Shown here one piece after another: positions 16,392-31,301 of a stretch of 48,237 nucleotides of DNA. The first letter of the stretch is position 1, and each line of letters begins with the position of its first letter. The stretch comes from an uncultured Clostridia bacterium (GTDB lineage Bacteria; Bacillota; Clostridia; Oscillospirales; Ruminococcaceae). The notes beneath the pieces were generated by a model. It did not search any database, had not been told where the DNA came from, and was given only the letters and a program-made list of their open reading frames with translations. The stretch covers positions 1 through 48,237 of the forward strand of contig CANQUJ010000014.1 of the NCBI GenBank assembly GCA_947627005.1, written 5' to 3'. A program made the translations under genes and the position numbers.

Positions 16392-16818
16392 TTAAGCGTC
16401 GCCGAGCCGCTGGATATAGAGCGAAGCGTTCGGCTCTCCGGCGGTGGTTGCGGGAAGGGTAGCCGCCCCGGCGCCGGTGTTGACCAAGGTGACGGTGTCG
16501 CCCGCCGCCGCGTTGACAATAACCGCGCCCGAAGCGGTGTTGCCGGTGTTGGCAAGTGCCCCTCCGGCCGCCGGCGCGCCGTTTTGATATACCGCAAATT
16601 GCCCTGCTGCGTCGGGGGTCACGGCCGGCATAACGAGGTAGTTCCCCGCCTCGGTGATAGTGGCCGCGCTTCCGCCCGGGGTAAAGGTAACGCCCTGCGT
16701 AGTTCCGGCGGTATCAAAGGTCACCGGCGAGGCCGCCGCAACCGTCTGCGCGCCGGTGTTGTATATTTGAGCGTAGGCCGTCGTCGGCGTAACGCCGTCC
16801 GCCCCGGTAGAGCCCTCA
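16392..16818 (-). pseudogene. Collagen-like spore-surface type protein, C-terminal fragment
   Basis: On the minus strand the frame is open from the element boundary (16,818) to the stop at 16,392. It reads EGSTGADGVTPTTAYAQIYN, then a beta-rich Gly/Ala/Thr domain ending NASLYIQRLGDA. This matches the C-terminal trimerising (C1q/TNF-like) domain of BclA-type collagen-like proteins. No start codon or ribosome site fits, because the N-terminal part is now at 30,522-31,301, on the far side of the inserted element. Joining at the AT core keeps the reading frame. Unless the element is excised this part is probably not made. Confidence 0.9.
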
Positions 16819-16832
16819 ATTTATGCACAACC
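16819..16832. other. Left attachment site, core and element arm
   Basis: Core AT at 16819-16820, then element arm TTATGCACAACC. The chromosomal arm (GAGCCCTCA on the plus strand) lies to the left. The arm is the near-perfect inverse of the right-end arm (11 of 12). Confidence 0.82.
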
Positions 16833-16837
16833 TGCTG

Positions 16838-18517
16838 TTATACAGCAGGCTTAAATTCTTTACTTACGGAGAGCGGCTTATTATTCTCAACAAACTCCGC
16901 CGCCCTTTGAAATTCATCTGCAAAATTAAAGTCAATCGTTATCTCTCCACCCTCATGAACCCAAATCGCGTCCACAAGCTCAACCAGAATCCCACGGTTC
17001 AGCGAAGTAATGTTTTGATACTTCAAAAACGCGGTCAGATACGGGTCATCGGCGCCAAGACTGCCCGATTTTTGGATTTGCTCCCGAAGATAGGCTGTAT
17101 TTTCCGTCTGCTTTTTGATCTGCTCTGCCAGTTTTGACTTTAATCGCCTATATTCCTCGGCAGAAATTTCTCCGCCTTTCCAATCAATATAAAGACTGTC
17201 CGAAGCGTCAGTCAGCGTTTTAAGCTGCTTTTCCGCTTGATTCAAAGCGATTTCAAGTCGCTTATTTTCACGGTTTACGGACGGCGCGTTCGTTATTTTT
17301 TCAATCTCCGCCGAAAGATTGTCAACAAGAGCGATCTGCACCTGCAAAGCCGCCAAAACTGCGCTTTCGAGCTTATCCTCACGAATCGTGTGCTTCGTGC
17401 AGGTCTTTTTGTCGGAATAGGTTCGGCAGGAGTAATACGCAAGGCCTTTAGCCGTCTTTCGGTGCATAGCCTTTTGACAGTCGGCACACCTTATCAATCC
17501 CGAAAACAGGTAAACCTCGCTTTTTTCGGGAGCGACCCGCGTATCCCGTCGGTGAAGCGCCTGAGCCTTGTCAAAAGTTTTACGGTCGATGATAGCCTCA
17601 TGCGCGTCGGGAACACGAAACCATTCATTTTCGGGAACGGCGACCTGCTTATGTACCTTATAGCTTATTACTTTGTTTCGCCCCTGCACCATAGTTCCGA
17701 CATAAACCTCATTCTGCAAAATCCGCGAGACGGTGCAGGCTGACCACAAGCCGTCGTTTTTTCGGGAGTTGGGATTCTGATAATTAAGCCCCAGCTTTTT
17801 CTTGTAGGCTTCGGGATTCGGCTCGCCTTGCAGATTGAGCTTTTGGGCGATTCCCCGCTTGCTCATGCCGCCAATAAACCATTTAAAAATGCACTTGACG
17901 ACTTCCGCCGCATTTTCATCGACAATAAGGCGGTTTTTGTTTTCGGGGTCTTTTTTGTATCCGTATGGCGCAAACGCCCCGATAAACTCTCCGCGCTCTC
18001 GCTTCATCTTAAATGTCTTGCGAATTTCCTCTGAAGTCGTCGCGGCAAATTGCTCGTTGAACATTCCGCGAATCGGAATCTCAAGTCCGCCTGACGAACG
18101 AGGGTCGCGGTAAGTGTCGATAAACGGCGTTCCCGTGCAGATGAACCGAGCGCCGTTTATCGGGATAAACTCCTCTAAAAATTTTTGCTGATCTGCAAGG
18201 TTGCGGAAACCTCTCGCAAGCGATTTTACAATCATGCAGTTGACCTCACGGCTTATAATGCAGTCCGTAATTCGCTTAAATCCGGGACGCGACGTATCGG
18301 TGCCGCTCAATCCGTCGTCCGAAAAAACGCCGACGATTTCATAGCTGCCCGGTTCAAAATAGTTCGCAACAAAATCTCTCAGAATTTTCTCCTGATTGAT
18401 AACACTTTCGCTGTCGCCTTCGTTTTCGTCCTCGCGCGAAAGCCTGATGTAAAGCCCTATTTTCCAGAATGGCTCGACGGGGCGCCTTGCCGATTCCGTT
18501 TTTCTTATTCGGGGCAT
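16838..18517 (-). CDS. Large serine recombinase (site-specific integrase/excisionase)
   Basis: 559 residues. The resolvase domain begins at about residue 19 (IGLYIRLSRED), with the nucleophile Ser at 27; DDGLSGTDTSRPGFKRI and the helix containing VKSLARGFRN follow. The recombinase domain includes GAFAPYGYKKDP and SRILQNEVYVGTMVQGRNK. A zinc ribbon (CADCQKAMHRK, then CRTYSDKKTC) sits near 345-375 and a coiled coil at about 395-445. Length and order match the TnpX/TndX group of clostridial elements. It cuts and joins attP and attB through 2-nt staggered ends. The gene ends 17 bp from the left end of the element; AGGAGGT precedes ATG 18517. Confidence 0.97.
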   Translation of the reverse strand: MPRIRKTESARRPVEPFWKIGLYIRLSREDENEGDSESVINQEKILRDFVANYFEPGSYEIVGVFSDDGLSGTDTSRPGFKRITDCIISREVNCMIVKSLARGFRNLADQQKFLEEFIPINGARFICTGTPFIDTYRDPRSSGGLEIPIRGMFNEQFAATTSEEIRKTFKMKRERGEFIGAFAPYGYKKDPENKNRLIVDENAAEVVKCIFKWFIGGMSKRGIAQKLNLQGEPNPEAYKKKLGLNYQNPNSRKNDGLWSACTVSRILQNEVYVGTMVQGRNKVISYKVHKQVAVPENEWFRVPDAHEAIIDRKTFDKAQALHRRDTRVAPEKSEVYLFSGLIRCADCQKAMHRKTAKGLAYYSCRTYSDKKTCTKHTIREDKLESAVLAALQVQIALVDNLSAEIEKITNAPSVNRENKRLEIALNQAEKQLKTLTDASDSLYIDWKGGEISAEEYRRLKSKLAEQIKKQTENTAYLREQIQKSGSLGADDPYLTAFLKYQNITSLNRGILVELVDAIWVHEGGEITIDFNFADEFQRAAEFVENNKPLSVSKEFKPAV

Positions 18518-18548
18518 GATACCTCCTTTCCCTTATAATCACGGTCGC

Positions 18549-18577
18549 ATTATAACATATTACTTTGTAAATTTCAA
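18549..18577 (-). promoter_or_regulatory. Promoter of the serine recombinase
   Basis: Minus-strand TTGAAA (18577-18572), 17-nt spacer, TATAAT (18554-18549). Confidence 0.78.
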
Positions 18578-18601
18578 TGTATATCGCTAAAGTAGAGCAA
18601 A

Positions 18602-18856
18602 TTATTTCAGTCCGACAAAATAATCGGAGAGCATATTTTTCAAATCTCGCCCCTGCGGTTTAAATCGGATTTTCATCGGCACGTCTCCTACCAAAAAGCA
18701 GTACGGATTTTTAACATCGCCAATAAATTGTGCAATCTTCTCATCAGCAGGAAGTTCTTCGTCAATCTTGATTTCTCGAATATCCGCAAGCCGAGTACGG
18801 TCAATCGACGTAATATCGGCGCTCGCAAGAGATTTAAGAGTTGTCAGATCAATCAT
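18602..18856 (-). CDS. DUF6870-like small protein of mobile elements
   Basis: 84 residues from ATG 18856, chosen because GGAGGGG lies upstream; the longer frame has no ribosome site. Pattern: SADITSIDRTRLADIREIKI, LPADEKIAQFI, VKNPYCFLVGDVPMKIRF. Small proteins of this form are frequent near recombinases and relaxases in clostridial integrative elements. Role unknown; as a small protein next to the recombinase it is one candidate for a directionality factor, though there is no direct evidence. Confidence 0.68.
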   Translation of the reverse strand: MIDLTTLKSLASADITSIDRTRLADIREIKIDEELPADEKIAQFIGDVKNPYCFLVGDVPMKIRFKPQGRDLKNMLSDYFVGLK

Positions 18857-18908
18857 CGCAGCCCCTCCGAAACGGTTTTTGTAAAGGGTATGCGAAATAG
18901 CTTGGGAG

Positions 18909-19784
18909 TTATTCATGCGACTTGTTTTTGTCATGTGATTTTATTTTCTCCTGATTGTTGTGCAAAGTTTTAGATATGTTATCTACAATAGTTTGCAGCC
19001 GCTTGACTTCACAGCGCTTTTCTTTCAATTCCGCATACAGTTCATTCTGCTGTGATGTCAGCCGTTCAACCTCTGACTGCAAAGTCTTATAGCTCGGGAT
19101 TTTTGTGATACCATGCTCTTTGAAATATTTCTGGGCAGACTTCATAATGATAAACTCGCTTTCATGCTGCTTTCGGAATTTCTCCCTTGCTCGGTCAGAC
19201 TTTAACGTCAGATATTCGTCCCGAATTGACCTTGTATTCGTATACTCAAGCACTTGTTTTTGAAGTTCCTTTTTGTCACGGAGTTCGGATTCAACGCCCT
19301 TGAGCTTTTCTCGGTACTCGCTTTCCTTGACCCTTGCGCCTGTAAGCGCAATCTGTAAATCTTCAAGCGACTTAAAACCATACCTTTCAAGTTCTGCAAG
19401 GCTCTTGGCAGACTGTTTCAAGTTGAACACTTTTGCCCAATGCTCAAAACCCGCGCCCTTGTCGTGCGTTACATCGACCATTCGCGAAATACTGTCGTGA
19501 TATGTGTTGATTTTTGAGGTTTTTGCCGCCTGTAAGAGTTCCAAAATGCTTGGGAGGGAAGATATACCCTGCTCTCCGTTTTGCGCCAACTGTCGCGATT
19601 TCTGCTCGAAAACGGCACTTATTGCAGTGAGGTCGAAGCCGTCGCCCAAACGTCGAGCGGTGATAGGTTTGGCGCGGTCTGACGTTAGATAACTTAACCG
19701 ACCTCGGCTTTGCATGATACCCTCTCTGAAACTCTTCAAAATCTCCGCTATTCGTGTGCAACAACTGATACTCCATTTTCCCAA
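18909..19784 (-). pseudogene. Relaxase (mobilisation nuclease), C-terminal fragment
   Basis: The frame encodes the typical C-terminal half of relaxases from clostridial mobilisable elements: SRGRLSYLTSDRAKPITARR, then GAGFEHWAKVFNLKQSAKSL, then a coiled-coil tail with REKFRKQHESEFIIMKSAQK and KIPSYKTLQSEVERL. The catalytic N-terminal domain, with its HxH metal site and Tyr, is absent: upstream sequence runs straight into the XRE gene promoter on the other strand. The listed 5' end is only the end of the open frame; no convincing start or ribosome site is seen. Autonomous mobilisation by this protein should be impossible. Confidence 0.82.
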
Positions 19785-19816
19785 CCACCGGTTTAGTCAA
19801 TTCGCCGAATAGTTTG

Positions 19817-19845
19817 TTGACTTTCCGTGAAAAATGCTCTAAAAT
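19817..19845 (+). promoter_or_regulatory. Promoter of the XRE regulator
   Basis: TTGACT (19817-19822), 17-nt spacer, TAAAAT (19840-19845), starting just beyond the truncated relaxase. Confidence 0.75.
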
Positions 19846-19886
19846 GACAGCAGAAGATCTTCAAAATGTCAAAAAGGAGTAAATCT

Positions 19887-20639
19887 ATGGAAAAAACTAT
19901 CTCACAAAAAATTATCGAGCTTCGCAAGGCGGCGGGGCTGACGCAGGAGCAACTCGGCGAGAAGCTGGGAATTTCAGGTCAGGCTGTTTCGAAATGGGAG
20001 CGTGGCGAGGCGATGCCGGACATCTTAATTCTGCCCGACCTGTGCGATGTGCTCGGCACAACGCTTGACTCGCTTCTGGGCGGAAAGCGCGCCGAAAGCC
20101 CTGAAAGTCCGCAGATCATAGGCGATTTCTGTGAATTTGCGATGAAAAACGGCCGCGCAGAAACGGTTCGGCAGGCGATTTCGCGAATGATGAATCAAGA
20201 TGTCGTTGTGTCAGGGAATGACGAGCTCAGTATCTGCCTCGAAAACGGCGAAAACATCCTTGTTTCCAATCCGCTCGGCATGGGTTTTGTGATGTCGGGG
20301 ACCGATTTTGCAGACTATTGTATGAAGATGGACAGAACACGAATCAATAATCTGATTAGTCTTTTTACAGATGAGACTGTGTTTGCCGTCGTCAAAATCA
20401 TCGCGAAAAATACGGCTACAGTTGACGAAATCTGCACAGAAACAGGATTAGAAAAATCAGAAATTCAGGAGATCCTTTTAGAGCTTTCAAACTTTGAGGT
20501 GATAGCATACGGCCGCGATAAAAACGGCAATCTCGGCTACTGCCCCGCGTCGGGCATGGCCGCCGTGTGGATGGTGCTTGCGGGGTGCAGCCTGTTTGAC
20601 ATTGGGGGCGTCCGCGGAAGCTCGTGGGTGACGGTGTGA
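19887..20639 (+). CDS. XRE-family transcriptional regulator with C-terminal sensor-like region
   Basis: 250 residues from ATG 19887 (AAGGAG upstream). The helix-turn-helix spans about residues 6-62 (ELRKAAGLTQEQLGEKLGIS, then GQAVSKWERGEAMPDILILP). The rest is unlike phage CI: a middle region with no known motif and a winged-helix-like stretch (KNTATVDEICTETGLEKSEI, then QEILLELSNFEVIAYG). Such double-HTH proteins are common lone regulators in Clostridia. It may control element genes or be a passenger. It replaced, or was inserted next to, the missing relaxase half. Confidence 0.87.
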   Translation: MEKTISQKIIELRKAAGLTQEQLGEKLGISGQAVSKWERGEAMPDILILPDLCDVLGTTLDSLLGGKRAESPESPQIIGDFCEFAMKNGRAETVRQAISRMMNQDVVVSGNDELSICLENGENILVSNPLGMGFVMSGTDFADYCMKMDRTRINNLISLFTDETVFAVVKIIAKNTATVDEICTETGLEKSEIQEILLELSNFEVIAYGRDKNGNLGYCPASGMAAVWMVLAGCSLFDIGGVRGSSWVTV

Positions 20640-20665
20640 TGCGGCAGGAATGTATTATAAAAAAT

Positions 20666-20696
20666 CGTCAATGCGGGCTATGGCATTGGCGTTTTT
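20666..20696 (+). terminator. Terminator after the XRE regulator
   Basis: CGTCAATGC, loop GGGCTATG, GCATTGGCG, then TTTTT; one G-T pair. Confidence 0.8.
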
Positions 20697-21147
20697 AATT
20701 AGGGGCCCCACAAAGTCCCAAGACTTTGTGGGGAAAAGGAGGAAAAAGAAGCGTTACTTCTTGCCGCTCGACTTCCCTCGGCAAACAAAGCGTTAAAACT
20801 TCCTTTTCGCCTTTCCTCGGCGGCAACGATTGCCTCGGTCGGCTCAAAGAGTTTTAATCGCGTTGTTTAACGACAGCCTCGGTCGTCTTGCGGAGAAGTA
20901 ATCGCGTCTTTGCGCGGAGCGAGCGAGTTTTCACCATTAGGGGGAAACGAGCGATATGGAGCTTGCGACGCCGCGCAGGGTTTGGGGAAGGCTACTCCCC
21001 AACAAGATTCCGTGCAGGCAAATTTGCGCTTAGAGTCAAATTTGGTCCCGCGGTAGAATCTTGCTCTAAGAAATCTTCATGTAGCTAAACTCTGCATTTT
21101 GAAAATTAGCTTCCTTTGATAACATCATTTAATTGTTCTTTTGCATA
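20697..21147. other. Non-coding repeat-bearing spacer inside the element
   Basis: About 450 bp with no convincing gene. It starts with a family B hairpin and continues with text shared with 4160-4260 (GGAAAAAGAAGCGTT, and TTTGCGCGGAGCGAG). It lies between the XRE terminator and the RM operon promoter. Confidence 0.65.
20706..20733 (+). repeat. Family B hairpin repeat, copy 2
   Basis: Stem CCCCACAAAGTC / GACTTTGTGGGG with a CCAA loop, between AATTAGGGG and AAAAG as at 4440-4463. Stem sequence differs between copies while pairing stays perfect. Confidence 0.72.
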
Positions 21148-21176
21148 TTGCCAACCCGCAGAATATGTGGTATAAT
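21148..21176 (+). promoter_or_regulatory. Candidate promoter of the element RM operon
   Basis: TTGCCA (21148-21153), 17-nt spacer, TATAAT (21171-21176). A second TATAAT near 21230 without a clear -35 box is also possible. Confidence 0.6.
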
Positions 21177-21260
21177 AACAATATATCTTAATTTGGATAA
21201 GTCCGTACTTTTGGACAGTTGGTATGTTATAATATATAATAACTTTGCGGGAGGCTCAAT

Positions 21261-23021
21261 ATGTCTAACGAAAAAATTGCGGTGGTCGGGACAAATATCG
21301 CGGAAAAGGCGACGATGATTTGGAACGTGGCGGATATGCTGCGCGGACCGTTCAAGCCGCATGAATATGGGCTTGTAATACTTCCGATGACGGTCGTGAA
21401 GCGGTTTCACGATTGCCTTTTGCCGACTCACGGCGCGGTTCTGGAGCAGTATGAAAAGGTCAAAAATCTCGCGGTCATTGACGGCTTTCTGACGCGCGCT
21501 TCGGGCTGTCAGTTTTACAACATCAGCAAATTTACCTTCGATACGCTTCTTGCCGATCCCGACAACATCGAGATAAATTTCCGCGACTATCTTGCGGGAT
21601 TTTCGGGGAATGTTCAGGACGTACTTTCAAAATTCGACTTCGACAGCATAATCAAGCGAATGGTCGAGAGCAACACGCTTTATCTCGTTATCAAAGAGTT
21701 CAACTCGCATAAAGGCTACTTAGGACCCGACAAAATCAGCGCGGTGGACTGCGGATATATTTTCGAGGATCTCGTCCGCCGCTTCTCCGAATCATTCGGC
21801 GAGGAGGCAGGAGCGCATTTCACAAGCAGGGATATAATTTATCTCATGACCGACCTGCTTCTGACCGACGCGAAGCTCGACGATGACTCTAACATCACCG
21901 TCTACGACATGACGATGGGTACAAGTCAGATGCTTTCCTGCATGGAGGAGCGGATACACGAGCTTAACGAGGACATCACCGTCACCTGTTTCGGGCAGGA
22001 GTTCAATCCCTCGACATTTGCTATCGCCAAGGCTGACATGATGATAAGAAACGGCGATCCGAACAACATGCGATTCGGCGACACGCTTTCGGACGACCAG
22101 TTTAAGGGATTCACGTTCAAATACTGCATAAGCAACCCGCCGTTCGGTATCGACTGGAAGCGCGAACAAAAGGCAGTCGAAGCAGAAGCCGCGCTCGGAG
22201 AGCTTGGGAGATTTGCCCCGGGGCTGCCGAAGATCAGCGACGGTCAGCAGCTTTTTGTGCTGAACGGTCTTTCAAAGCTCGCGCCCGACGGAAGAATGGC
22301 TATCATTCAGAACGGCTCGCCGCTGTTTTCGGGCGACGCGGGCAGCGGGCCGAGCAACATCAGGCAATACATACTCGAAAACGACTGGCTCGACGCTATC
22401 GTTCAGCTTTCGACCGACCAGTTCATGAACACCGGCATATCCACCTATATCTGGGTAATTTCAAAGGACAAGCCCGCATACCGAGCGGGAAAAGTCCAGC
22501 TCATCGACGCTTCGCACTGCTATGAACAGCGCAGAAAATCAATCGGCACAAAGAGAAACGACATCACCGACCTTTGCCGAAATCTCATCGTCACAGCATA
22601 CGGCGAATTCAAAAACAACGCCGTCTACGGCGACGAAAACAGCGTTTACTGCGAGAGCAAAATTTTTGATTCCGAGGAATTCGGTTATCGGAAAATCACC
22701 GTCGAAAGACCGCTTCGGGACGAAAACGGTGAGATCGTCACGAAAAAGGGTAAGCCTGTCGCAGACGCGGCTCTTAGGGACAGCGAGAACGTGCCGCTGA
22801 AAGAGGACATCGACGAATATTTCAGGCGGGAGGTTCTGCCCTACGCGCCCGACGCGTGGATAGACAGGAGCAAGACGAAAATCGGGTATGAGATACCGAT
22901 GACGAGGTATTTTTACAGGTATCAGCCGCCCGAGCGGTCGGAGGATATAACAAAGCGGCTGCATATTTTGGAGAGCGAGATCTCGCAGTCGCTTGAGCAG
23001 TTGTTTGGGGAGGAAAACTAA
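21261..23021 (+). CDS. hsdM: Type I RM methyltransferase subunit HsdM
   Basis: 586 residues. The N-terminal helical domain (NVADMLRGPFKPHEYGLVIL) is followed by the methylase domain: a HFTSRDIIYLMTDLL entry, motif I as VYDMTMGTSQML, motif IV as NPPFG (about residue 294). Motif I departs from the usual DPxxGSGGML, with Met-Thr-Met-Gly replacing Pro-x-x-Gly; the Asp and Gly are kept, so S-adenosylmethionine binding may be intact. A charged insert (RDENGEIVTKKGKPVADAAL) lies before the C terminus. GGGAGG precedes ATG 21261. Its stop overlaps the next ATG by one base (TAATG). It is unrelated in detail to the hsdM at the window start, so there are two separate systems. Confidence 0.94.
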   Translation: MSNEKIAVVGTNIAEKATMIWNVADMLRGPFKPHEYGLVILPMTVVKRFHDCLLPTHGAVLEQYEKVKNLAVIDGFLTRASGCQFYNISKFTFDTLLADPDNIEINFRDYLAGFSGNVQDVLSKFDFDSIIKRMVESNTLYLVIKEFNSHKGYLGPDKISAVDCGYIFEDLVRRFSESFGEEAGAHFTSRDIIYLMTDLLLTDAKLDDDSNITVYDMTMGTSQMLSCMEERIHELNEDITVTCFGQEFNPSTFAIAKADMMIRNGDPNNMRFGDTLSDDQFKGFTFKYCISNPPFGIDWKREQKAVEAEAALGELGRFAPGLPKISDGQQLFVLNGLSKLAPDGRMAIIQNGSPLFSGDAGSGPSNIRQYILENDWLDAIVQLSTDQFMNTGISTYIWVISKDKPAYRAGKVQLIDASHCYEQRRKSIGTKRNDITDLCRNLIVTAYGEFKNNAVYGDENSVYCESKIFDSEEFGYRKITVERPLRDENGEIVTKKGKPVADAALRDSENVPLKEDIDEYFRREVLPYAPDAWIDRSKTKIGYEIPMTRYFYRYQPPERSEDITKRLHILESEISQSLEQLFGEEN

Positions 23022-23347
23022 TGTACGGCTTTATATATAAACTTTTGATAAGTCCGTTAGGTCTTCCGGTAAATGCCCTTTTGGAGTGGATAATTTTGCT
23101 TATCATTGAAAAAATTGCATTTAAGATAGCGTGGGAGGCTTCTCACGGAGGATTTTGGGGTTCCGAGATTCACTGGACTGTCCGCACAATTTCATTTTTT
23201 GTGATATGGGCAATTACATACGCGGTGATTTGGACAGTCAAATTTGTAATCGCAAACTGGGTGATTTTCGTCTGCCTCGGTATTATTGCGGTGACAGCCG
23301 TGATAGTTGTTGCACTCGAAAGGCTTAGGAGGAAGAACGATGCGTGA
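23021..23347 (+). CDS. Small membrane protein inside the RM operon
   Basis: 108 residues with three likely membrane segments (about 8-33, 53-75 and 78-98) and a basic tail ending RLRRKNDA. Start ATG 23021 overlaps the hsdM stop (TAATG) and the gene runs 8 nt into hsdS, so the three genes are tightly coupled. I do not recognise the family. A membrane protein between hsdM and hsdS is not part of a normal type I system; it may be an accessory defence factor or a passenger. Confidence 0.75.
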   Translation: MYGFIYKLLISPLGLPVNALLEWIILLIIEKIAFKIAWEASHGGFWGSEIHWTVRTISFFVIWAITYAVIWTVKFVIANWVIFVCLGIIAVTAVIVVALERLRRKNDA

Positions 23348-24578
23348 AATGAAAGACAGCGGTATTGAGTGGATTGGGGAGATACCGAGGGGGTGGGAAA
23401 TTTCAAAAGCAAAATATTTTATAAAAATTCAAAACGGTTCTGACCCGACAACTGATGGAAATATTCCAGTTTATGGCAGTGGCTCTGAAAGTTTTAAAAC
23501 GTGTGGCGAATATAAAGAAGGACCGACAGTGCTTATCGGAAGGAAAGGAACTATAAATATTCCACGATATATAGAAGGCAAATATTGGAATGTGGATACC
23601 GCTTTTGACGTTCATTCGCTGGGAAAATTTAATTTGAAATATTACTTTTATTGCGCGGTCAGTTTTGATTATAAGTTTTACATTTCGCAAACCACCTTGC
23701 CAAGTATGACGCAAACTAATTATGAAAACATTTTTTTGCCTATACCTAACAGTGACGAGCAGCACCGTATCGCCGACTTTTTAGACCGCAAATGCGCGGA
23801 AATCGACGCGGTTATCGAAAAGACAAAGGCGGCTGTCGAGGAATACAAAAAGCTGAAGCAGTCGGTGATAACCGAGGCGGTGACAAAAGGCGTCCGAGGT
23901 CCGCGCCCGATGAAGCCCAGCGGCGTGGAGTGGATAGGAGATGTGCCGGAGGGGTGGGAAGCCGATAAAGTCAAGCACCTGTTTACAAACGGAAAAGGTT
24001 TGTCAATTACTAAGGAAAACCTTGTAGAAACGGGATTGCCTGTAATCAGCTACGGTCAAATACACTCAAAGAATAATAGCGGAACCGAAATAACAGACGA
24101 TTTATTGAGATATGTAGATTTTCAATATCAAACCGATTTTCCGCAATGCGAAGTTTTTCAATATGATTTTGTTTTTGCAGATACGTCGGAAGATTACGAC
24201 GGCTGCGGAAATTGTGCATACAAGCAAGACTCATCAATTCTTTTTGGCGGCTATCACACTATTATTTTACATTCTAACAGTAAAAAAGATAACAAGTATT
24301 TTGCTTACCTGTTTAAAACCGATTCGTGGAGAAAGCAACTTCGGGAAGTTGCGACAGGAGTTAAGCTGTTCACAATAGCGCAGAAAACTCTGATGAATAG
24401 TTCTGTTATAATTCCACCTGAAAGCGAGCAGCAGGAAATCTCCGACTACCTCGACCGCAAATGCGCGGGGATAGATAACATTTTAGCCAAAAAACAGCAG
24501 TTTATAAAGGAATTGGAAGCCTATAAAAAATCACTCATCTATGAATATGTAACAGGAAAAAAGGAGGTCAAATCATGA
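23340..24578 (+). CDS. hsdS: Type I RM specificity subunit HsdS
   Basis: 412 residues from ATG 23340; AGGAGG upstream supports this start over the longer frame. There are two TRDs, each opened by a conserved phrase: KDSGIEWIGEIPRGWE near residue 4 and KPSGVEWIGDVPEGWE near 193. Each is closed by a helix after PNSDEQHRIADFLDRKCAEI and PPESEQQEISDYLDRKCAGI. Both TRDs (about 23400-23750 and 23970-24420) are AT-rich relative to the helices and to hsdM. The stop overlaps the hsdR start by 4 nt (ATGA). Confidence 0.94.
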   Translation: MREMKDSGIEWIGEIPRGWEISKAKYFIKIQNGSDPTTDGNIPVYGSGSESFKTCGEYKEGPTVLIGRKGTINIPRYIEGKYWNVDTAFDVHSLGKFNLKYYFYCAVSFDYKFYISQTTLPSMTQTNYENIFLPIPNSDEQHRIADFLDRKCAEIDAVIEKTKAAVEEYKKLKQSVITEAVTKGVRGPRPMKPSGVEWIGDVPEGWEADKVKHLFTNGKGLSITKENLVETGLPVISYGQIHSKNNSGTEITDDLLRYVDFQYQTDFPQCEVFQYDFVFADTSEDYDGCGNCAYKQDSSILFGGYHTIILHSNSKKDNKYFAYLFKTDSWRKQLREVATGVKLFTIAQKTLMNSSVIIPPESEQQEISDYLDRKCAGIDNILAKKQQFIKELEAYKKSLIYEYVTGKKEVKS

Positions 24579-27500
24579 TTGCAACAGAAAAAGTTTATGA
24601 GGAAAACATCGAGGCAGGCTTTACCTCTCCCGCGGGAGGCTATACGAAAGGCGCGGATACATACGACGCTAAGCGCGGACTTTTCGTCAACACCTTTATA
24701 GATTTTGTAATGCGCACCCAGCCGAAAGAGTGGGCGCGGTTCGAGAATATGACACAGTACGACCCCGTGGGGAAATTCTGCGCGGCGTTTGATTCGGCAT
24801 GCGAAACCGACGGCATTTTACATGTTCTCCGCCATGGCTTCAAGCATCGCGGGATAACTTTCCACGTCTGCTACTTCAAACCCGAATCCACCCTCAACCA
24901 GACCGCAATGTCGCTTTGGGCGCATAATAAAGCCGAGTGTTACCGCCAGTGGCACTACTCCGCAGATTCAAACAAGAGCGTTGATATGGTACTTGCCCTC
25001 AACGGCATACCTGTTTTCGCCTTTGAGCTTAAAAATCAGTACACCGGGCAGAACATCAACGACGCCAAGGAGCAGTGGATGCACGACCGCGACCCGCGTG
25101 AGATCTGCTTCCAGTTCAACCGCCGTGTTCTTGCTTTTTTCTGCGTGGATCAGCTTGACGTATGCATGACGACCAAGCTCGACGGCAAGAAAACGCGTTT
25201 TCTGCCGTTCAACCAAGGCTCAAACGGCGCAGGACGTTCGGGCGGTGCGGGCAATCCCCCTAACCCCGACGGCTATCCGACGGCGTATCTCTGGGAAAAT
25301 GTTTTCCAAAAAGACAGCATGATGGATATACTGCAAAAGTTTTTGCATTTGCAGGTCAAAGAGGAAAAGAAAACTCTGCCCGACGGCAGCGAGAAGATAG
25401 TAAAGAAAAAGACGCTTATTTTCCCGCGTTATCATCAGCTTGACGTTGTAAGAAAGCTGATAAACGACGTCAAGGAAAACGGCGCGGGGCATAATTATCT
25501 CATTCAGCACAGCGCGGGCAGCGGCAAGTCTAATTCTATCGCGTGGACGGCATATCGCCTTGCTTCGCTTTTTGATGAGCATGACAAACCCGTCTTTTCA
25601 AGCGTTATCGTAGTCACCGATAGAACGGTTCTTGACGCGCAGCTGTAGGAAACCATCTCGCAATTTGAACACGTCGAGGGTGCTATCGAAACGATAGGCG
25701 AAAATAAAAATTCCAAAGATTTGCGCGACGCTATTAACAGCGGAATCAGAATTATTGTCACGACCTTGCAGAAATTCCCTGTTATCTATCAGGAGGTTGA
25801 CAGCACTGCTGGACGCAATTTTGCAATTATAGTTGATGAAGCGCACTCCTCCCAGACCGGAAGCTCGGCGTTAAAGCTGAAAGCCGCCCTTGCCGACACC
25901 GAGGACGCTCTGCGGGAGTATGCCGAAATCGAGGGCAAGACCGAGGAGGAGCTTGACCCCGACGACAGGCTGATGAACGAGATGATAGTTCACGGCAAGC
26001 ATAAAAACCTGTCTTTCTTCGCATTCACCGCCACTCCGAAAGACAAAACCCTTGAGCTTTTCGGCACCGAATACCCCGACGGCACTTTCCACCCGTTCCA
26101 TATTTACAGCATGAAGCAGGCAATCGAGGAGGGCTTTATACTCAACGTCCTGCAAAATTACATGACCTACGACACCTGTTTCAAAATCGCAAAAACGACT
26201 TCCGAGAATCCCGATGTTCCGTCGAGCAGAGCCGCCAAGGTGATACGCAGGTATCAGGAGCTGCACCCGTATAACATTTCCCAGAAGTCGCAGATAATAG
26301 TCGAAACATTCAGAGAAACGACCCGCCACAAAATCGGCGGCAAGGGCAAGATGATGGTAATAACCTCGTCACGCCTTGCTGCGGTCAGATACTGCCACGA
26401 GGTCAGAAGATATATCGAAGAACAGCACTATGACGATATAAAAATCCTCACCGCCTTTTCGGGCAGCGTCACCGACGGCGATATTGAATATACCGAGCCG
26501 AAACTGAACACAAGAGCTGACGGCAGCCACATTTCCGAAGCTCAGACAAAGGCAGAATTTCACGATAATTTCAACGTGCTTATCGTCGCCGAAAAGTATC
26601 AGACAGGCTTTGATGAGCCGCTTTTGCATACGATGATAGTCGATAAAAAGCTGAAAGGCGTAAAGGCTGTTCAGACCCTTTCCCGCCTTAACAGAATTTG
26701 CGAGGGAAAAATCGACACTTTTATTCTTGATTTCGTAAACAAAAAAGAGGACATTTCGGACGCTTTCCAACCGTTCTATCAGGAAACTTTATTAGGCGAG
26801 GAAGTCAACACCGACCTGATTTACAAGACCCAAAAGGAGCTTCGCGGCTATGCGATTTATACCGACGAGGACGTCGAAACTTTTGCAAATGAATATTTCG
26901 GCAAACCTCGTCAGGGCGATAAAGGCATCAGCAAAATGACGAGCATTTTAATGCCCGCCGCCACAAGATATAACCAAAAAACTCCCGACGAGAGATACCA
27001 GTTCCGCAGACTTCTCCGCAACCTGATAAAGTGGTACGGCTATATCTCGCAGGTCGTTCGCATGTTTGACCGAGCCTTGCACAAGGAATATATTTTTTGC
27101 TCATATTTTCTGGGACTTCTGCCCGAGGAAACCGTGCGAATGGTAGACCTTGAGGGCAAGCTGAAATTGGAGTATTACAAGCTCCAAAAGACCTTTGCGG
27201 GCGAGATTGAGCTTCAAGACGGAATTACTGTTTATGAATCCCGAAAAAAGTTAGGTGCAAAGGGTCAGGACGAAAAAACGCCGCTCGATGAAGTCATAGA
27301 GAAGATTAACGAGAGGTTCAAAGGCAGCTTTACCGACGCGGATAAGGTGCTTCTGTCCGCGCTTCACGCAAGGCTTATGTCCGACAAAAAACTTGCCAAA
27401 ATGGCGCGTTCCTCCGACCCGCAGGTTTTCACCGAGAGCATCTTCCCGAAAGCCTTCGGCGACGCCGCACAGGATAGTTATGTCGAGTCGCAGGACACCT

Positions 27501-27586
27501 ATACCTCGCTTTTTGAGGATAAGGGTAAGTATAACGCGATTATGAGCGCACTGGCGGAGATTGTTTATAGGGAGATGAGGAAGTAG
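24575..27586 (+). pseudogene. hsdR: Type I restriction subunit HsdR, broken by an in-frame amber codon
   Basis: The single frame encodes 1003 residues if the TAG at 25646-25648 is read through. N-terminal nuclease domain: FELKNQ with the E-x-K pair near 151-153. Helicase: Walker A HSAGSGKSNS near 312-321, DEAH near 420, FAFTATPKDKTLELFG, later YQTGFDEPLLHTMIVDKKL and LSRLNRIC. The TAG falls at residue 358, between Walker A and DEAH, in TVLDAQ-L-stop-ETISQFEHVEG; a C-to-T change of CAG (Gln) would explain it. Sequence on both sides is otherwise intact and in one frame, so the mutation is recent, or a sequencing or strain variant. If real, restriction is off while methylation by HsdM/HsdS can continue. 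Confidence 0.92.
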
Positions 27587-27694
27587 GATTAACATGCATT
27601 TTTATTATATGGTCAAATATGTTCAAGAAAGCTCGTGAATGTTTGTAAAGAAATTTCGCAAATAATTTATTTTTAATTTTTTTTTGGAAAACTC

Positions 27695-27723
27695 TTGACA
27701 TTTATGTTTGCTTTGAGTATAAT
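27695..27723 (+). promoter_or_regulatory. Promoter of the AT-rich XRE gene
   Basis: TTGACA (27695-27700), 17-nt spacer, TATAAT (27718-27723): perfect consensus, 21 nt before the ATG. Confidence 0.88.
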
Positions 27724-27744
27724 AATATCAGAGGAGAGATTGTT

Positions 27745-28785
27745 ATGCCAAAAATTGTCGTCACACCAGAATTAGCCAGTACGATAAAACACCTCCGACT
27801 CCAGCAAAGCATTGCGTCAAAGGATGTTGCAGCGCAAATTAACAAGAGCCCATCGTATGTCTCGCGTTTAGAAAGCGGGAATATTCGCACTGTCGAGGTT
27901 CAAACCCTTAGTGAAGTTTTAGGGTTCTTGAGCGGCGGCGATATCGAATCCGAAGAAACGATTTCAAAGCTGTATGATACTTTAACCTTACAGTTTTCCA
28001 AAGATGAAATAGAAAAGCAGATTTGGTTTGCTAACTATGACACAGTAGGTCGTAAAATCCCTATTCCGGACAGTTTAATTGAAGATATTTTATCACGGAT
28101 GAGTGCCCATCAAATTTCTCGTTCTTATTTACTTCAGCGAATCAACGCGAATGAGGCGCTATCGGAAAGTGAGAGAAATGACAAGTCCATAGAATATAAT
28201 GTGTGGTACGCAAAAGGAAGTAGCGGAATGCACAGCATAAAAATGTTATTGTCCGTTCAAATTCTTGACGGCATTTTAGACCGCAAAATCACATCTGCAC
28301 CATATGTTATAATGCAGAGCATTGTGTTTTATATTTTGAAGATCTCAAAACATTCTGACGTAGCAGAAATTAACGACTTTGAAAATAACGAGTTGATGCG
28401 CGCTTCTGTCGATTTGTTAAACTCGCATCGATTCTATTCGATATTTGAAAAAAATAAACTTTTGAACTCAGTGCGGTCTATAGATGAAATTGAGCAGATC
28501 TTTAGTAGTTACGAGGTCGATAATATCAGCACAATACAGTCTATTATTAAAAAGATACTTCAAGCTGCTGATGTCGATTTAAGCACAGTATCTGGTCGCT
28601 TGAAAGAATTTGACAATAATCTTGCTTGCGACGTTTGGTTTATGCTCAAAATAATTAGCCTGAAATATTGTGATTTGTCAAGCTTGAGTACTACCAAGAA
28701 AAAAGACTTTATTGCCGAGACAGAGGCACTTATTGAAAAATTCGGTTCCATGCCGGAGGACCAAAAAGCAGTGGAAATATATTAA
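27745..28785 (+). CDS. XRE-family regulator with large unknown C-terminal domain
   Basis: 346 residues, AT-rich. The helix-turn-helix is at about 8-62 (TIKHLRLQQSIASKDVAAQI, then NKSPSYVSRLESGN). The remaining 280 residues are helical, with no motif I can name; a KQIWFANYDTVGRKIPIPDS stretch is next to the HTH. The overall plan (short HTH plus long helical sensor) recalls peptide- or phage-responsive regulators, but TPR repeats are not obvious. AGAGGAGAG precedes the ATG. A short convergent transcription unit lies just beyond its 3' end (28826-28935). Confidence 0.84.
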   Translation: MPKIVVTPELASTIKHLRLQQSIASKDVAAQINKSPSYVSRLESGNIRTVEVQTLSEVLGFLSGGDIESEETISKLYDTLTLQFSKDEIEKQIWFANYDTVGRKIPIPDSLIEDILSRMSAHQISRSYLLQRINANEALSESERNDKSIEYNVWYAKGSSGMHSIKMLLSVQILDGILDRKITSAPYVIMQSIVFYILKISKHSDVAEINDFENNELMRASVDLLNSHRFYSIFEKNKLLNSVRSIDEIEQIFSSYEVDNISTIQSIIKKILQAADVDLSTVSGRLKEFDNNLACDVWFMLKIISLKYCDLSSLSTTKKKDFIAETEALIEKFGSMPEDQKAVEIY

Positions 28786-28825
28786 CTCATACATATCTCG
28801 TGAACAATAAATCACAGGAAAACAT

Positions 28826-28865
28826 AAAGAGAAAAGACCCGCTAAATCTGCAAATTTAACGAGTC
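28826..28865 (-). terminator. Minus-strand terminator of a short hidden transcript
   Basis: On the minus strand GACTCGTTAAAT pairs with ATTTAGCGGGTC (12 bp, two G-U pairs), loop TTGCAG, then TTTTCTCTTT. On the plus strand the G-U pairs become C-A mismatches and no T-run follows, so it is directional. Confidence 0.72.
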
Positions 28866-28889
28866 TGTCAGGAAAATATGACAATACAT
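28842..28889 (-). CDS. Possible 15-aa peptide (or the body of a small RNA)
   Basis: ATG at 28889 opens MYCHIFLTDSLNLQI and stops with TAG at 28844-28842, inside the terminator stem. GGAG lies 7 nt upstream of the ATG, right at the predicted transcription start. The unit is bounded by a perfect promoter and a directional terminator, giving a transcript of about 75 nt. Whether the product is the peptide or the RNA cannot be decided from sequence. It is convergent with the XRE regulator gene, whose stop is 41 nt beyond the terminator end. Confidence 0.38.
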   Translation of the reverse strand: MYCHIFLTDSLNLQI

Positions 28890-28906
28890 ATTTTGTCTCC
28901 ACATGT

Positions 28907-28935
28907 ATTATAGCAAAAAAATACGTGATTGTCAA
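28907..28935 (-). promoter_or_regulatory. Perfect minus-strand promoter with no annotated gene
   Basis: TTGACA (28935-28930), 17-nt spacer, TATAAT (28912-28907). It drives the short unit ending at the 28826-28865 terminator. Confidence 0.8.
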
Positions 28936-29056
28936 CATATCCGACCAAAAAAGACCGAGAAGGAAGTGAAAATCATAGGTTCTCTCCGAATGTTTCCCTT
29001 TTATATAAAACAAGAACAAGCAGAGTTTTAAAGTGACATTTAAAGGAGACTTCCGT

Positions 29057-29266
29057 ATGAAAAATTATATTATTAACAAGAGCAAAGACAATCACAATTG
29101 TAATGAAGTTCACACGTCAACGTGCTATCGGGCACAAAATATCAAGGAGTATGAAAAACTGGGGATTTTCAACAATGAAAATGAAGCCGTCGCATATGCT
29201 AAAAAGCATGGGTATCCCAATGCTGATGGATGCTTTTACTGTTGCCCCAATGCTCATACGAAATGA
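29057..29266 (+). CDS. Small Cys/His-rich protein, Ada-like metal-binding shape
   Basis: 69 residues from ATG 29057 (AAAGGAG upstream). Residue order: VHTSTCYRAQ, then FNNENEAVAYAKKHGYPNAD, GCFYCCPNAH. The His, the Cys pair and the final CxxCCPxxH cluster, with a repeated Gly-Tyr-Pro before them, resemble the small metal-binding domain found at the start of Ada proteins and in short phage or plasmid proteins. Role unknown; a zinc-binding structural role is likely. Confidence 0.68.
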   Translation: MKNYIINKSKDNHNCNEVHTSTCYRAQNIKEYEKLGIFNNENEAVAYAKKHGYPNADGCFYCCPNAHTK

Positions 29267-29335
29267 TTTGTTGGCAAACCTGTAGAGAGTTCTAATTATC
29301 CACAGCTCTTTACCGCAAACTCTTTTGCGCATCTC

Positions 29336-29364
29336 GCGTCACCGTATCATTGATACGGTGACGC
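29336..29364. repeat. Perfect 14-bp inverted repeat with one-base centre
   Basis: GCGTCACCGTATCA, T, TGATACGGTGACGC. It lies between the Cys-rich gene and dinD; there is no strong T-run on either side, so an operator is as likely as a terminator. Confidence 0.75.
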
Positions 29365-29477
29365 TTGCATGGTTTTATATAAATAAAATCTCACATAGGT
29401 TTTGCAAACGATGATATGATTAAATTGATAAATACAATTTAAAATAAACAAATAGCTCAATAATAGAGGAGGCCAAT

Positions 29478-30335
29478 ATGGATAAACATCGAGTTGAGGC
29501 GATTAAAGAACAATTTGATCTTGTAATACATACCGAAACAGATTATAATATTGAATTTTGGTATGCTCGGGAAATAATGCCGTTGCTTGGATATGAACGA
29601 TGGGAAAACTTTGAAAATGCCATTGCGCGTGCAATTGAATCGTGCCGTACAAGCGATATTGAGGTATCGGATCATTTTCGTGAGGTCACGAAAATGATAT
29701 CGGTGGGGAAAGGCGCACAAAGATATATTAGAGATTATATGCTGACTCGTTATGCTTGTTACCTTATTGCTCAGAACGGAGATCCTAAAAAAGAAGAAAT
29801 TGCCTTTGCGCAAGGCTATTTTGCTGTGCAGACACGAAAACAGGAACTCATTGAAGAGCGCATTGCTTATATAGAAAGAACAGAAGCAAGAGATAGACTG
29901 CGTGAATCCGAAAAACGTCTTTCTCAAAATATTTATGAACGCGGAGTAGATGACGCCGGCTTTGGGCGAATTCGTTCTAAAGGAGACAAGGCTCTTTTTG
30001 GAGGATATACAACTCAAGAAATGAAGGCACGACTGGATGTAAAAGACAATCGACCACTTGCAGATTTTTTGCCGACTGTAACCATTGCAGCAAAGAATTT
30101 GGCAACAGAAATTACCAACTATAATGTAGAAGAAAAAGATTTGCAGGGAGAAACGGCAATTATCGGAGAACATATTCAAAACAATCTTTCGGTTAGGGAT
30201 CTGCTTGGACAGCGTGGTATTACTCCCGAGGACTTACCTCCATCAGAAGATATAAAGAAATTAGAACGACGGGTAAAGTCGCAAGAAAAGAAACTGGCGA
30301 CCCAATCTGGTAAATTACCGAACAAAAGCAAATAA
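29478..30335 (+). CDS. dinD: DNA damage-inducible protein D (DinD-like)
   Basis: 285 residues. The N-terminal BRO-like half (YNIEFWYAREIMPLLGYERW, ENFENAIARAIESC) is followed by the DinD core: VGKGAQRYIRDYMLTRYACY, LIAQNGDPKKEEIAFAQGYF, AVQTRKQELIEERI and SKGDKALFGGYTTQEMK. E. coli DinD is SOS-induced and inhibits RecA-DNA complexes. In mobile elements it is a common cargo gene. GAGGAGG precedes ATG 29478. No clear LexA box is visible upstream. It is the last gene before the right end of the element. Confidence 0.92.
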   Translation: MDKHRVEAIKEQFDLVIHTETDYNIEFWYAREIMPLLGYERWENFENAIARAIESCRTSDIEVSDHFREVTKMISVGKGAQRYIRDYMLTRYACYLIAQNGDPKKEEIAFAQGYFAVQTRKQELIEERIAYIERTEARDRLRESEKRLSQNIYERGVDDAGFGRIRSKGDKALFGGYTTQEMKARLDVKDNRPLADFLPTVTIAAKNLATEITNYNVEEKDLQGETAIIGEHIQNNLSVRDLLGQRGITPEDLPPSEDIKKLERRVKSQEKKLATQSGKLPNKSK

Positions 30336-30419
30336 ACAAGCTATAGTTACTGTATGAGAACTTCATCGAAGCTGTATAATTAAGCGAAAGCATGATGCTC
30401 TATTTCAGAAATAATTAAC

Positions 30420-30466
30420 AGCCCCATCATGTTCAAGATTTATTAGCTTGACACGATGGGGCTTTT
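30420..30466 (+). terminator. Terminator after dinD
   Basis: AGCCCCATC pairs with GATGGGGCT, extended through CATGTTCAAG and GCTTGACACG with a bulge, followed by TTTTG. It protects the element end and may work against antisense reading of the collagen-like gene. Confidence 0.82.
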
Positions 30467-30507
30467 GTGATTATAAGGATATAAATATTTTTTACTTTCT
30501 GATTTTC

Positions 30508-30521
30508 GGTTGTGCATATAT
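30508..30521. other. Right attachment site, element arm and core
   Basis: Element arm GGTTGTGCATAT (30508-30519) and core AT (30520-30521). The chromosomal arm to the right begins AGACGGCGC. Joined to the left end, the arms would form a symmetric attP. Confidence 0.82.
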
Positions 30522-31301
30522 AGACGGCGCAGTCGGGCCGGTTGCCCCGGTGGCGCCTGTTGCTCCAACCGCCCCCGCTACTCCGGCAGGACCTTGAGGG
30601 CCGGTAGCGCCTGTCGCACCGACTGCCCCCGCGATTCCTGCGGGACCCTGCGGGCCGGTCGCACCTGTTGCCCCAGTCGGGCCGGTAGCGCCTGTTGCGC
30701 CGGTCGCCCCGACCGCACCCGCTATTCCGGCAGGGCCCTGTGGGCCGGTTGCACCTGTCGCGCCGGTAGCTCCGACTGCCCCCGCGATTCCTGCGGGACC
30801 CTGCGGGCCGGTCGCACCTGTTGCCCCAGTCGGGCCGGTAGCGCCTGTTGCGCCGGTCGCCCCGACCGCACCCGCTATTCCGGCAGGGCCCTGTGGGCCG
30901 GTTGCGCCTGTCGCTCCTGTTGCTCCAACTGCACCCGCTATTCCTGCAGGGCCCTGTGGGCCGGTCGCGCCTGTCGCTCCTGTTGCGCCGGTCGCCCCGA
31001 CCGCACCCGCTATTCCTGCGGGACCCTGCGGGCCTGTTGCCCCTGTCGCTCCTGTCGCCCCGGCGGGGCCGGTAACGCCGGTCGCCCCGGTCGCGCCGAC
31101 TGCTCCCGCAACTCCGGCAGGGCCCTGCGGGCCTGTTGCCCCGGTTGCTCCTGTCGCTCCGGCGGGGCCGGTAACGCCGGTCGGGCCGATGACCAGCCCG
31201 CCGCCGCAGGTTCCTCCGCAGCCGAAGTTGTATACGTTCGTGCCGTTGGGATAGCAGCCGCCCGTTGCGCCGCAGCCGCAGCCGTTGTTAATATTTGCCA
31301 T
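30522..31301 (-). pseudogene. Collagen-like spore-surface type protein, N-terminal fragment
   Basis: The minus-strand frame starts at ATG 31301 (GGAGG 8 nt upstream) and encodes [15 protein letters not shown], a Cys/Gly-rich leader, then about 220 residues of G-x-y collagen repeats ([16 protein letters not shown]). At residue 260 it meets the element; beyond that the frame reads only IYAQPKIRK and stops at 30492, inside the element. BclA-type proteins form glycosylated filaments on spores of Bacillus and Clostridia. Its own promoter and ribosome site remain, so a truncated stalk lacking the C-terminal trimerisation domain could still be made. The glycosyltransferase gene lies 50 nt upstream. 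Confidence 0.92.
30525..31199 (-). repeat. Collagen-coding tandem repeats
   Basis: Repeat blocks coding [20 protein letters not shown] with small length variants, from 30,525 to about 31,199. Near-identical DNA blocks (for example around 30600-30680 and 30780-30860) would favour slippage and unequal recombination. Confidence 0.88.

Follow-up and report, generated by a model that had tools for sequence, protein, structure and literature searches.

Within a 48,237-nucleotide stretch of DNA from an uncultured Clostridia bacterium (hereafter the window), a BclA-like collagen gene is interrupted by an integrative element that carries a large serine recombinase and no recognised phage genes. We favour, with modest confidence, excision of this element in the mother cell over plain mobility. 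The attachment site is DNA coding for G-X-T collagen repeats, and the gene, probably coding for a spore-surface protein, would stay interrupted in growing cells. A small DUF6870 protein, the putative directionality factor, would be made only in the mother cell from a sigma-E-like promoter and, together with an ever-present recombinase expressed from a sigma-A-like promoter, would remove the element there. The mother cell would then make whole collagen for the spore surface, and the forespore would keep the element.

Ends of the element and the rejoined gene

The original prediction, a collagen-like surface gene split by a serine-recombinase element of about 13.7 kb, was confirmed: both gene halves share strand and frame and are separated by 13,725 bp, and the recombinase is encoded at the element end. 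The features of the junctions are the following.

16392..16806, minus strand: C-terminal half of the gene, with a BclA C-terminal domain (Pfam BclA_C 9.9e-11, 16395-16806; stop codon 16392-16394)
16807..16808, minus strand: core dinucleotide AC at the recombinase end (GT on the plus strand)
16807..30533, no strand: the inserted element from one core to the other, a unit of 13,725 bp (arms and cores common to 21 related elements)
16809..16832, minus strand: element arm GGTTGTGCATAAATTGAGGGCTCT, kept in relatives
30492..30533, minus strand: element-encoded tail and stop codon closing the truncated N-terminal half, like tails in other AC elements
30508..30531, plus strand: element arm GGTTGTGCATATATAGACGGCGCA, adjoining the core at 30532-30533
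30532-30533: core dinucleotide at the far end, GT on the plus strand
30534..31301, minus strand: N-terminal half of the gene, Cys-rich leader and G-X-T repeats (Pfam Collagen 2.8e-34; whole homologues in the genus)

The two 24-bp arms of the window are equal at 19 of 24 positions, and the C-terminal half has a 76% identical homologue in another genome, G019. The joint had been placed at an AT dinucleotide (16819/30520), and this was rejected, because the ends of related elements place the crossover at AC. Where both ends could be read, in 22 elements, the conserved end extends ten bases beyond AT, to a dinucleotide identical at both ends, which is AC in 18 elements and GT in 4. Joining at AT yields 402 aa, reads PTAPSIEGSTGADG and breaks the G-X-Y register; the AC joint predicts a gene of 394 aa with the collagen register unbroken. 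Restoration of the frame was thus correctly foreseen, and the length of about 402 residues was not. The peptides of the AT joint, APSI and IEGS, are present in none of 15 genus homologues outside a run of N in L062. All 17 further AC elements that were read close the truncated half with a similar tail (T[AE][PR][SF]IYAQ, 9-28 aa). The rule of an arm followed by an identical dinucleotide holds with non-collagen targets too (L011 and L030). In draft genomes the two ends are often on separate contigs, and they were paired through the right-end motif, of which each genome has a single copy. Judged from these sequences, the recurrence of arms, cores and target in other insertions is more than chance.

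The window thus shows a recombinase and paired att sites in a protein-coding gene, with a reading frame predicted to be restored on excision, as in sporulation-gene intervening elements. In-frame rejoining is automatic for conservative site-specific insertion and alone is no evidence of development, so that a developmental argument built on it alone is weak.

Gene content of the element

16838..18517, minus strand: large serine recombinase, 559 aa (Pfam Resolvase, Recombinase, Zn_ribbon_recom)
18549..18577, minus strand: recombinase promoter, sigma-A-like, TTGAAA-N17-TATAAT (11/12 consensus bases)
18602..18856, minus strand: DUF6870 protein, 84 aa, a candidate for the recombination directionality factor (RDF) (Pfam 1.4e-23 on a longer ORF)
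18885..18912, minus strand: promoter of the DUF6870 gene, sigma-E-like, ATA-N17-CATACCCT
18909..19784, minus strand: probable remnant of a relaxase, its C-terminal part (matched by tblastn in 11 relatives)
19866..20639, plus strand: XRE-type regulator (Pfam HTH_3)
21261..23021, plus strand: type I modification subunit HsdM (PADLOC MTase_I 4.1e-221)
23307..24578, plus strand: type I specificity subunit HsdS (PADLOC Specificity_I 1.6e-84)
24575..25648, plus strand: HsdR, first part of a split gene (NCBIfam hsdR, profile 100-315, below cut-off)
25721..27586, plus strand: HsdR, second part (NCBIfam hsdR, profile 346-672, below cut-off)
27745..28785, plus strand: XRE-type regulator (Pfam HTH_3)
29478..30335, plus strand: DinD / Bro-N protein (NCBIfam DinD 2.6e-109)

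No phage structural or replication gene was found among the element proteins with Pfam, NCBIfam or PADLOC. The ORF at 18909..19784, like the roughly 445-aa ORFs of some relatives, is what we take to be relaxase-like, a name given by no library; where an integrative mobilizable element has an intact relaxase, the window holds the C-terminal remnant only. The DUF6870 gene adjoins the recombinase gene in 36 of 45 relatives. Its product has a predicted structure of mean pLDDT 82.4, with three helices (of at least 4 residues) and two strands.

Targets of related elements

At least five consecutive G-X-Y triplets were present no more than 330 bp from the end that carries the recombinase in 31 of 42 relatives, against 77 of 3462 random windows (of the 45 loci, L028 and L047 are partial, L039 ends at the recombinase, and these three were left out). 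As in the original prediction, a spore-surface collagen is a plausible class of target. Of the 22 elements read at both ends, 20 rejoin to G-X-T-G, the empty site reading GGNNNNACNGG, for a background of 2.95% of AC dinucleotides. All 24 sense-oriented collagen C-halves listed are open to a stop; outside this list stand L011 and L030, whose targets are not collagen, and L016 and L017, with little or no collagen. The target of L014 looks phage-like, and in L033 two elements lie end to end around one collagen stretch. Farther out, in a family-wide sample of recombinases at 42-53% identity, about half end at non-collagen sequences. Collagen targeting is not one clean clade of the recombinase tree, where it requires 12 changes, with target labels set by hand for L008, L021, L026, L038 and L097, and a "short collagen" label that is a chance run of 3 in L025, L030 and L101.

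A viral origin was also considered, and rejected: the viral contigs scanned held no recombinase relative, and the relatives found in 16 records of a phage collection were all below 60% identity. Two of these records (43% and 38%, both linear) had no collagen in the stretch examined after the recombinase.

Promoters of the DUF6870 and recombinase genes

Of 29 clusters, 19 have the core ATA-N14-17-CATA ahead of the DUF6870 gene, whereas only 5 of 294 starts of other genes have it; the motif was recognised post hoc and in relatives that are not independent. It preceded the recombinase gene in 1 of 18 clusters; shuffles gave a mean of 0.5 and a maximum of 3. As positive control, spoIIID had this looser core in 12 of 22 clusters. 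With the strict sigma-E pattern, clustered counts were 16/29 for DUF6870, 2/294 for other genes and 6/22 for spoIIID (7 of 24 spoIIID upstreams). The control spoIIID was taken in place of spoIVA, which failed (0/20 upstreams), apparently owing to a preceding gene that ends close to its start. Start codons of DUF6870 were chosen by ribosome-binding site; that of L024 is misplaced, and its visible motif was counted as absent. Upstream of the recombinase, a sigma-A-like pattern was present in 20 of 40 cases.

Within these clusters the sigma-E-like motif went with the target: 17 of 21 that target collagen had it, versus 1 of 6 others (p 0.008, or 0.0097 without the L033 row, which is a second element). 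A wider, class-wide comparison gave 18/22 versus 3/23 (p 4e-6), a figure that is flattered, since in 11 of the 17 class loci the recombinase seems to be followed by another one and the element end was unread. This finding slightly lowered our confidence in mother-cell excision and raised that in plain mobility. In that comparison the collagen column was set by hand, and loci with an unreadable far flank were left out, namely L039 and L109 of the 29 clusters, and L192 (with motif), L199, L202, L207, L208 and L211 of 24 loci.

Host and collagen gene

SpoIVA is present in 30 of 31 members of the genus. Of 30 tested genomes that bear the element, 28 match SpoIIID, though in some the match is partial or split. 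Both genes gave matches over cut-off in G000. Cultured carriers include Diplocloster modestus ASD4241 and Flavonifractor sp. An82. The homologous collagen gene was found in 16 relatives, where, as had been anticipated, it is mostly intact (13 whole, 1 interrupted too, 2 unreadable); the whole homologues adjoin the same kind of gene. The collagen gene of the window starts 50 bp after a glycosyltransferase gene, and its sole promoter match is sigma-K-like, overlapping the ribosome-binding site. Such a motif lies upstream of 8 of 24 target or homologous genes versus 36 of 674, and the sigma-E-like pattern upstream of 0 of 24 (no start was found for L010, L012 and L022, and that of L035 is inside repeats).

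Mother-cell excision or plain mobility

The predicted developmental excision gained from the sporulation genes of the host, from the sigma-E-like promoter at the putative RDF gene, from the preference of relatives for collagen, from the sigma-K-like motif at some target or homologous genes and from the open C-halves, and lost from the search for the excised form. The circular junction was seen in 0 of 33 assembled genomes, in a search with exact arms that would miss variants and in assemblies, which rarely show rare circles; it was likewise absent from the viral contigs and plasmids searched with exact arms. These searches suit a plain mobile element, for which collagen-like repeats are an abundant and dispensable place to land; it would excise for transfer only, and carriers would simply have a broken gene. 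Relaxase-like genes or remnants and a cargo that varies among related elements point the same way. Distribution, a point against mother-cell excision, is patchy in the genus, with recombinase relatives at 92-96% in 2 of 30 other members (one partial) and at 52% in a third. In G020 the recombinase is identical at 535 of 559 positions, versus 202 of 340 for the flanking host protein, and the homologous collagen gene is interrupted at different points in G000 and G020. Five hosts share an identical recombinase although the targets differ, which means that the family moves often, and open C-halves may then only reflect recent arrival. This frequent movement, the non-collagen targets, the post hoc nature of the motif, the non-independence of the relatives, the lack of a sigma-E-like pattern before the target or homologous genes and the single sigma-K-like match at the window's own gene all count against mother-cell excision, and we regard plain mobility as a serious possibility, if on the doubtful side. 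It leaves unexplained, however, the sigma-E-like promoter of the gene next to the recombinase, seen in 19 of 29 clusters and for the most part in those that target collagen.

A switch in which growing cells now and then lose the element, so that only part of the population makes the collagen protein, would agree with the sigma-A-like promoter of the recombinase and with the exact rejoining. We think such a surface switch improbable, given the lack of a circular form in the 33 assembled genomes and of any sign that the collagen protein acts on growing cells. An assembly artefact, or a chance resemblance of two gene pieces, might be suspected in a genome of 48 contigs with repeats that are hard to assemble. 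It is hardly credible, as the same arms, cores and target occur in 21 other elements, L012 and L031 being in records titled complete chromosomes, and as whole homologues adjoin the same kind of gene. Mother-cell excision thus remains our preferred reading. There is perhaps an even chance that a mobile branch across several Clostridia families has taken a collagen-repeat codon pattern as attachment site and placed its excision factor under the mother-cell sigma-E; its loss would then be confined to the dying mother cell, and the gene damage would be hidden.

Comparison with known systems

SCC elements have a fixed site in rlmH. Like them, with their Ccr recombinases, the window element is a cargo island with a large serine recombinase (its CcrB match is weak, far below cut-off), but it lies in a collagen-like gene and not in rlmH. 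Clusters of large serine recombinases sharing one target gene cluster are known (PMC10083194); the word collagen is absent from the main text of that paper.

Further parallels come from sporulation genes. The gin element, in gerE of Bacillus cereus ATCC10987, is described as a non-phage element with recombinase and directionality factor (PMC5595907). The window element is likewise non-phage and interrupts a gene of putative sporulation role, with one recombinase under a sigma-A-like promoter where gin has three recombinase genes, girC being expressed in sporulation. In Clostridium botulinum, the yin element interrupts the sporulation gene yabG and has a recombinase and a putative RDF (PMC10747680); it is prophage-like, reported as unique to one strain, and its excision was measured, whereas the window element is known from its sequence. 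SPbeta interrupts spsM of Bacillus subtilis, which serves spore-envelope maturation (PMC4191935), and is reported to combine a constitutive recombinase with an RDF under a sporulation sigma factor (PMC5595907). Unlike this active phage with one site, the window element has no recognised phage genes and its site is a repeat motif. In skinCd, which interrupts sigK in Clostridioides difficile, the recombinase is described as constitutive with a sigma-A promoter and the RDF as under sigma-E (PMC5025042). The window element resembles it in its large serine recombinase with sigma-A-like promoter, its small candidate RDF with sigma-E-like promoter, and a gene predicted to be rejoined on excision. It differs in a structural collagen-like target instead of sigK, in not being prophage-like, in the variation of target and cargo, and in an excision that is here a prediction.

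By analogy, a mobile family would probably be applying the regulatory logic of skinCd and SPbeta to a new class of target gene. In the papers considered here, developmental excision is described for single genes such as sigK, spsM, gerE, spoVFB and yabG. The present family, by contrast, has many hosts and a landing site, coded by repeats, that is available in every bacterium possessing a G-X-T collagen gene. It bears on how selfish elements turn into tolerated parts of sporulation, DUF6870 is a predicted regulator open to direct testing, and the family is a source of integrases with a coding-repeat target.

The element and the gene it interrupts

The window, part of a 2.07-Mb genome in 48 contigs, has a collagen-like gene on its minus strand, made up of a leader, G-X-T repeats and a BclA C-terminal domain, which is split by 13,725 bp. 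The element holds, numbered from its left end:

Gene 1: large serine recombinase, 559 aa
Gene 2: DUF6870 protein, 84 aa, a candidate recombination directionality factor (RDF)
18912-18885: sigma-E-like ATA-N17-CATA of the DUF6870 gene
Gene 3: apparent relaxase tail
Gene 4: regulator
Gene 5: type I restriction system, with hsdR split into two reading frames (24575-27586)
Gene 6: second regulator
Gene 7: DinD-like gene

No phage genes were recognised among the element proteins in Pfam, NCBIfam and PADLOC searches.

The C-terminal domain was matched in 17 of 31 genomes of the genus. An intact gene in related genomes, as the original prediction implied, is indeed found: 13 of the 17 homologues are uninterrupted. 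Two are interrupted, in the window genome and in genome G020; one of the remaining two is truncated at the start of a contig, and the other includes a stretch of N. Outside the two interrupted loci, 12 of the 15 homologues have a glycosyltransferase gene similar to the window's beside them, once in the opposite direction. In G020 the interrupted homologue has the same two neighbouring genes as in the window, and the element sits in a different repeat; its ends are on two contigs, and the cargo next to its right end differs from that of the window. Because the two recombinases are identical at 535 of 559 positions and the flanking glycosyltransferases at 202 of 340, separate, recent arrivals are likelier than common descent. 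A third genus member has a partial recombinase relative (G021:C75:855-1796, 92% over residues 49-364) and a whole collagen gene.

Ends, core and rejoined gene

Relatives of the recombinase were found at 45 loci when the genome collection was scanned. Both ends could be read in 22 elements; in draft genomes they were paired on the ground that each genome holds a single copy of the right-end motif. All 22 have an identical core at both ends (AC in 18, GT in 4), and the window arms are equal at 19 of 24 positions. The pattern of the empty site, GGNNNNACNGG, fits 20 of the 22, the exceptions being L011 and L030. The crossover had been placed at an AT dinucleotide, which would give 402 aa with a broken repeat; this has to be abandoned, as the conserved end of the relatives runs 10 bases beyond AT, reaching AC or GT. 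Joined at AC, the window gene encodes 394 aa with the repeat unbroken. The four GT-core elements whose two ends were read are antisense and at Thr codons; a further one, L020:10297-10653, differs in lying in sense orientation at a Val codon (G-A-V).

Collagen-like genes as targets

At least five consecutive G-X-Y triplets were present within 330 bp of the recombinase end in 31 of 42 relatives, against 77 of 3462 random windows (p = 5×10−40). All ten C-terminal halves scanned matched Pfam Collagen and seven matched BclA_C, only two of these over the curated cut-off. L069, from an earlier search, has a G-X-Y run of six. A family-wide recombinase sample, drawn without the same peptides, gave 14 additional matches: collagen lay at the element end in L097 (just two triplets), L098, L099, L103, L108 and L110, seven had none, and L109 had no flank. 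The habit is thus strong near the window recombinase and weaker with distance; on the recombinase tree, collagen targeting requires 12 changes.

Some arrangements were more complex. In L097, 18 bp separate one element end from another, as though two elements had gone into adjacent G-X-T repeats. At L033:7638-11893, two elements, each with its own DUF6870 gene and recombinase, stand end to end facing one short collagen stretch. At L023:8491-9534, a whole collagen-like ORF is cargo of a 3.5-kb relative that itself lies inside an interrupted collagen gene.

Promoters and sporulation genes

The recombinase promoter is sigma-A-like by sequence match. A class-wide sample of 391 genomes yielded 24 additional DUF6870 places, of which L191, L192, L195 and L200 showed the motif pattern, only L200 having collagen behind the recombinase. 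The motif tests were post hoc and the sequences are related, so that the following p values flatter: 19 of the 29 DUF6870 clusters have ATA-N14-17-CATA upstream, as do 5 of 294 other genes (p = 3×10−19), and within those 29 clusters the motif accompanied collagen targets in 17 of 21 cases versus 1 of 6 non-collagen ones (p = 0.008); with 18 readable class-wide places added, the link stood at 18/22 versus 3/23 (p = 4×10−6), where true element ends are unseen in 11 of 17 class-wide places, an apparent second recombinase lying behind the first. In many relatives the spacer of the sigma-E-like promoter (18885-18912 in the window) carries ACAA or ACAG shortly behind the ATA, which may resemble a SpoIIID box. 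A sigma-K-like motif precedes 8 of 24 target or homologous genes, against 36 of 674.

Sporulation genes are present in the genus. SpoIIID was matched in 28 of 30 carrier genomes tested, the gene being split in some; adding G019 and G025, neither of them known to be a carrier, brings the set to 32 genomes, of which 19 scored above the curated cut-off. In the same hosts the ATA-N14-17-CATA core precedes spoIIID in 12 of 22 clusters; the C. difficile spoIIID promoter fits the sigma-E consensus, according to PMC5025042.

The gene appears split in the genomes of L009 (Clostridium fessum), L015 (Flavonifractor An82) and L016 (Mediterraneibacter catenae), at L212 (G035:C22:153600-161600), L213-L214 (G041:C23) and L215 (G042:C16). 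Beside the C-half in the L009 and L015 genomes stands a serine recombinase of 516 aa that shares about 25% identity with the one in the window; the N-half was read in that of L016. These genomes may harbour a family of spoIIID-intervening elements.

Developmental excision or plain mobility

The exact rejoining is no proof of developmental excision. Three other points weigh on this question: the sporulation genes of the hosts, the sigma-A-like promoter of the recombinase, and the ATA-N14-17-CATA motif ahead of DUF6870. A plain mobile element is a possible reading, which we hold somewhat improbable, and several observations speak against excision in the mother cell: no excised form was found with the exact arms in the genomes and viral contigs searched, the spread is patchy, the element is mobile and some targets are exceptional. 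No paper among the matches listed describes collagen-like genes as a site of such elements, subscription papers and preprints lying outside the search, and this negative is no proof of novelty.

We nevertheless lean slightly towards mother-cell excision. Just this arrangement of recombinase and RDF promoters is described for skinCd, which interrupts sigK of C. difficile, in PMC5025042, and SPbeta, in spsM of B. subtilis, has an arrangement similar to that of the element (PMC5595907).
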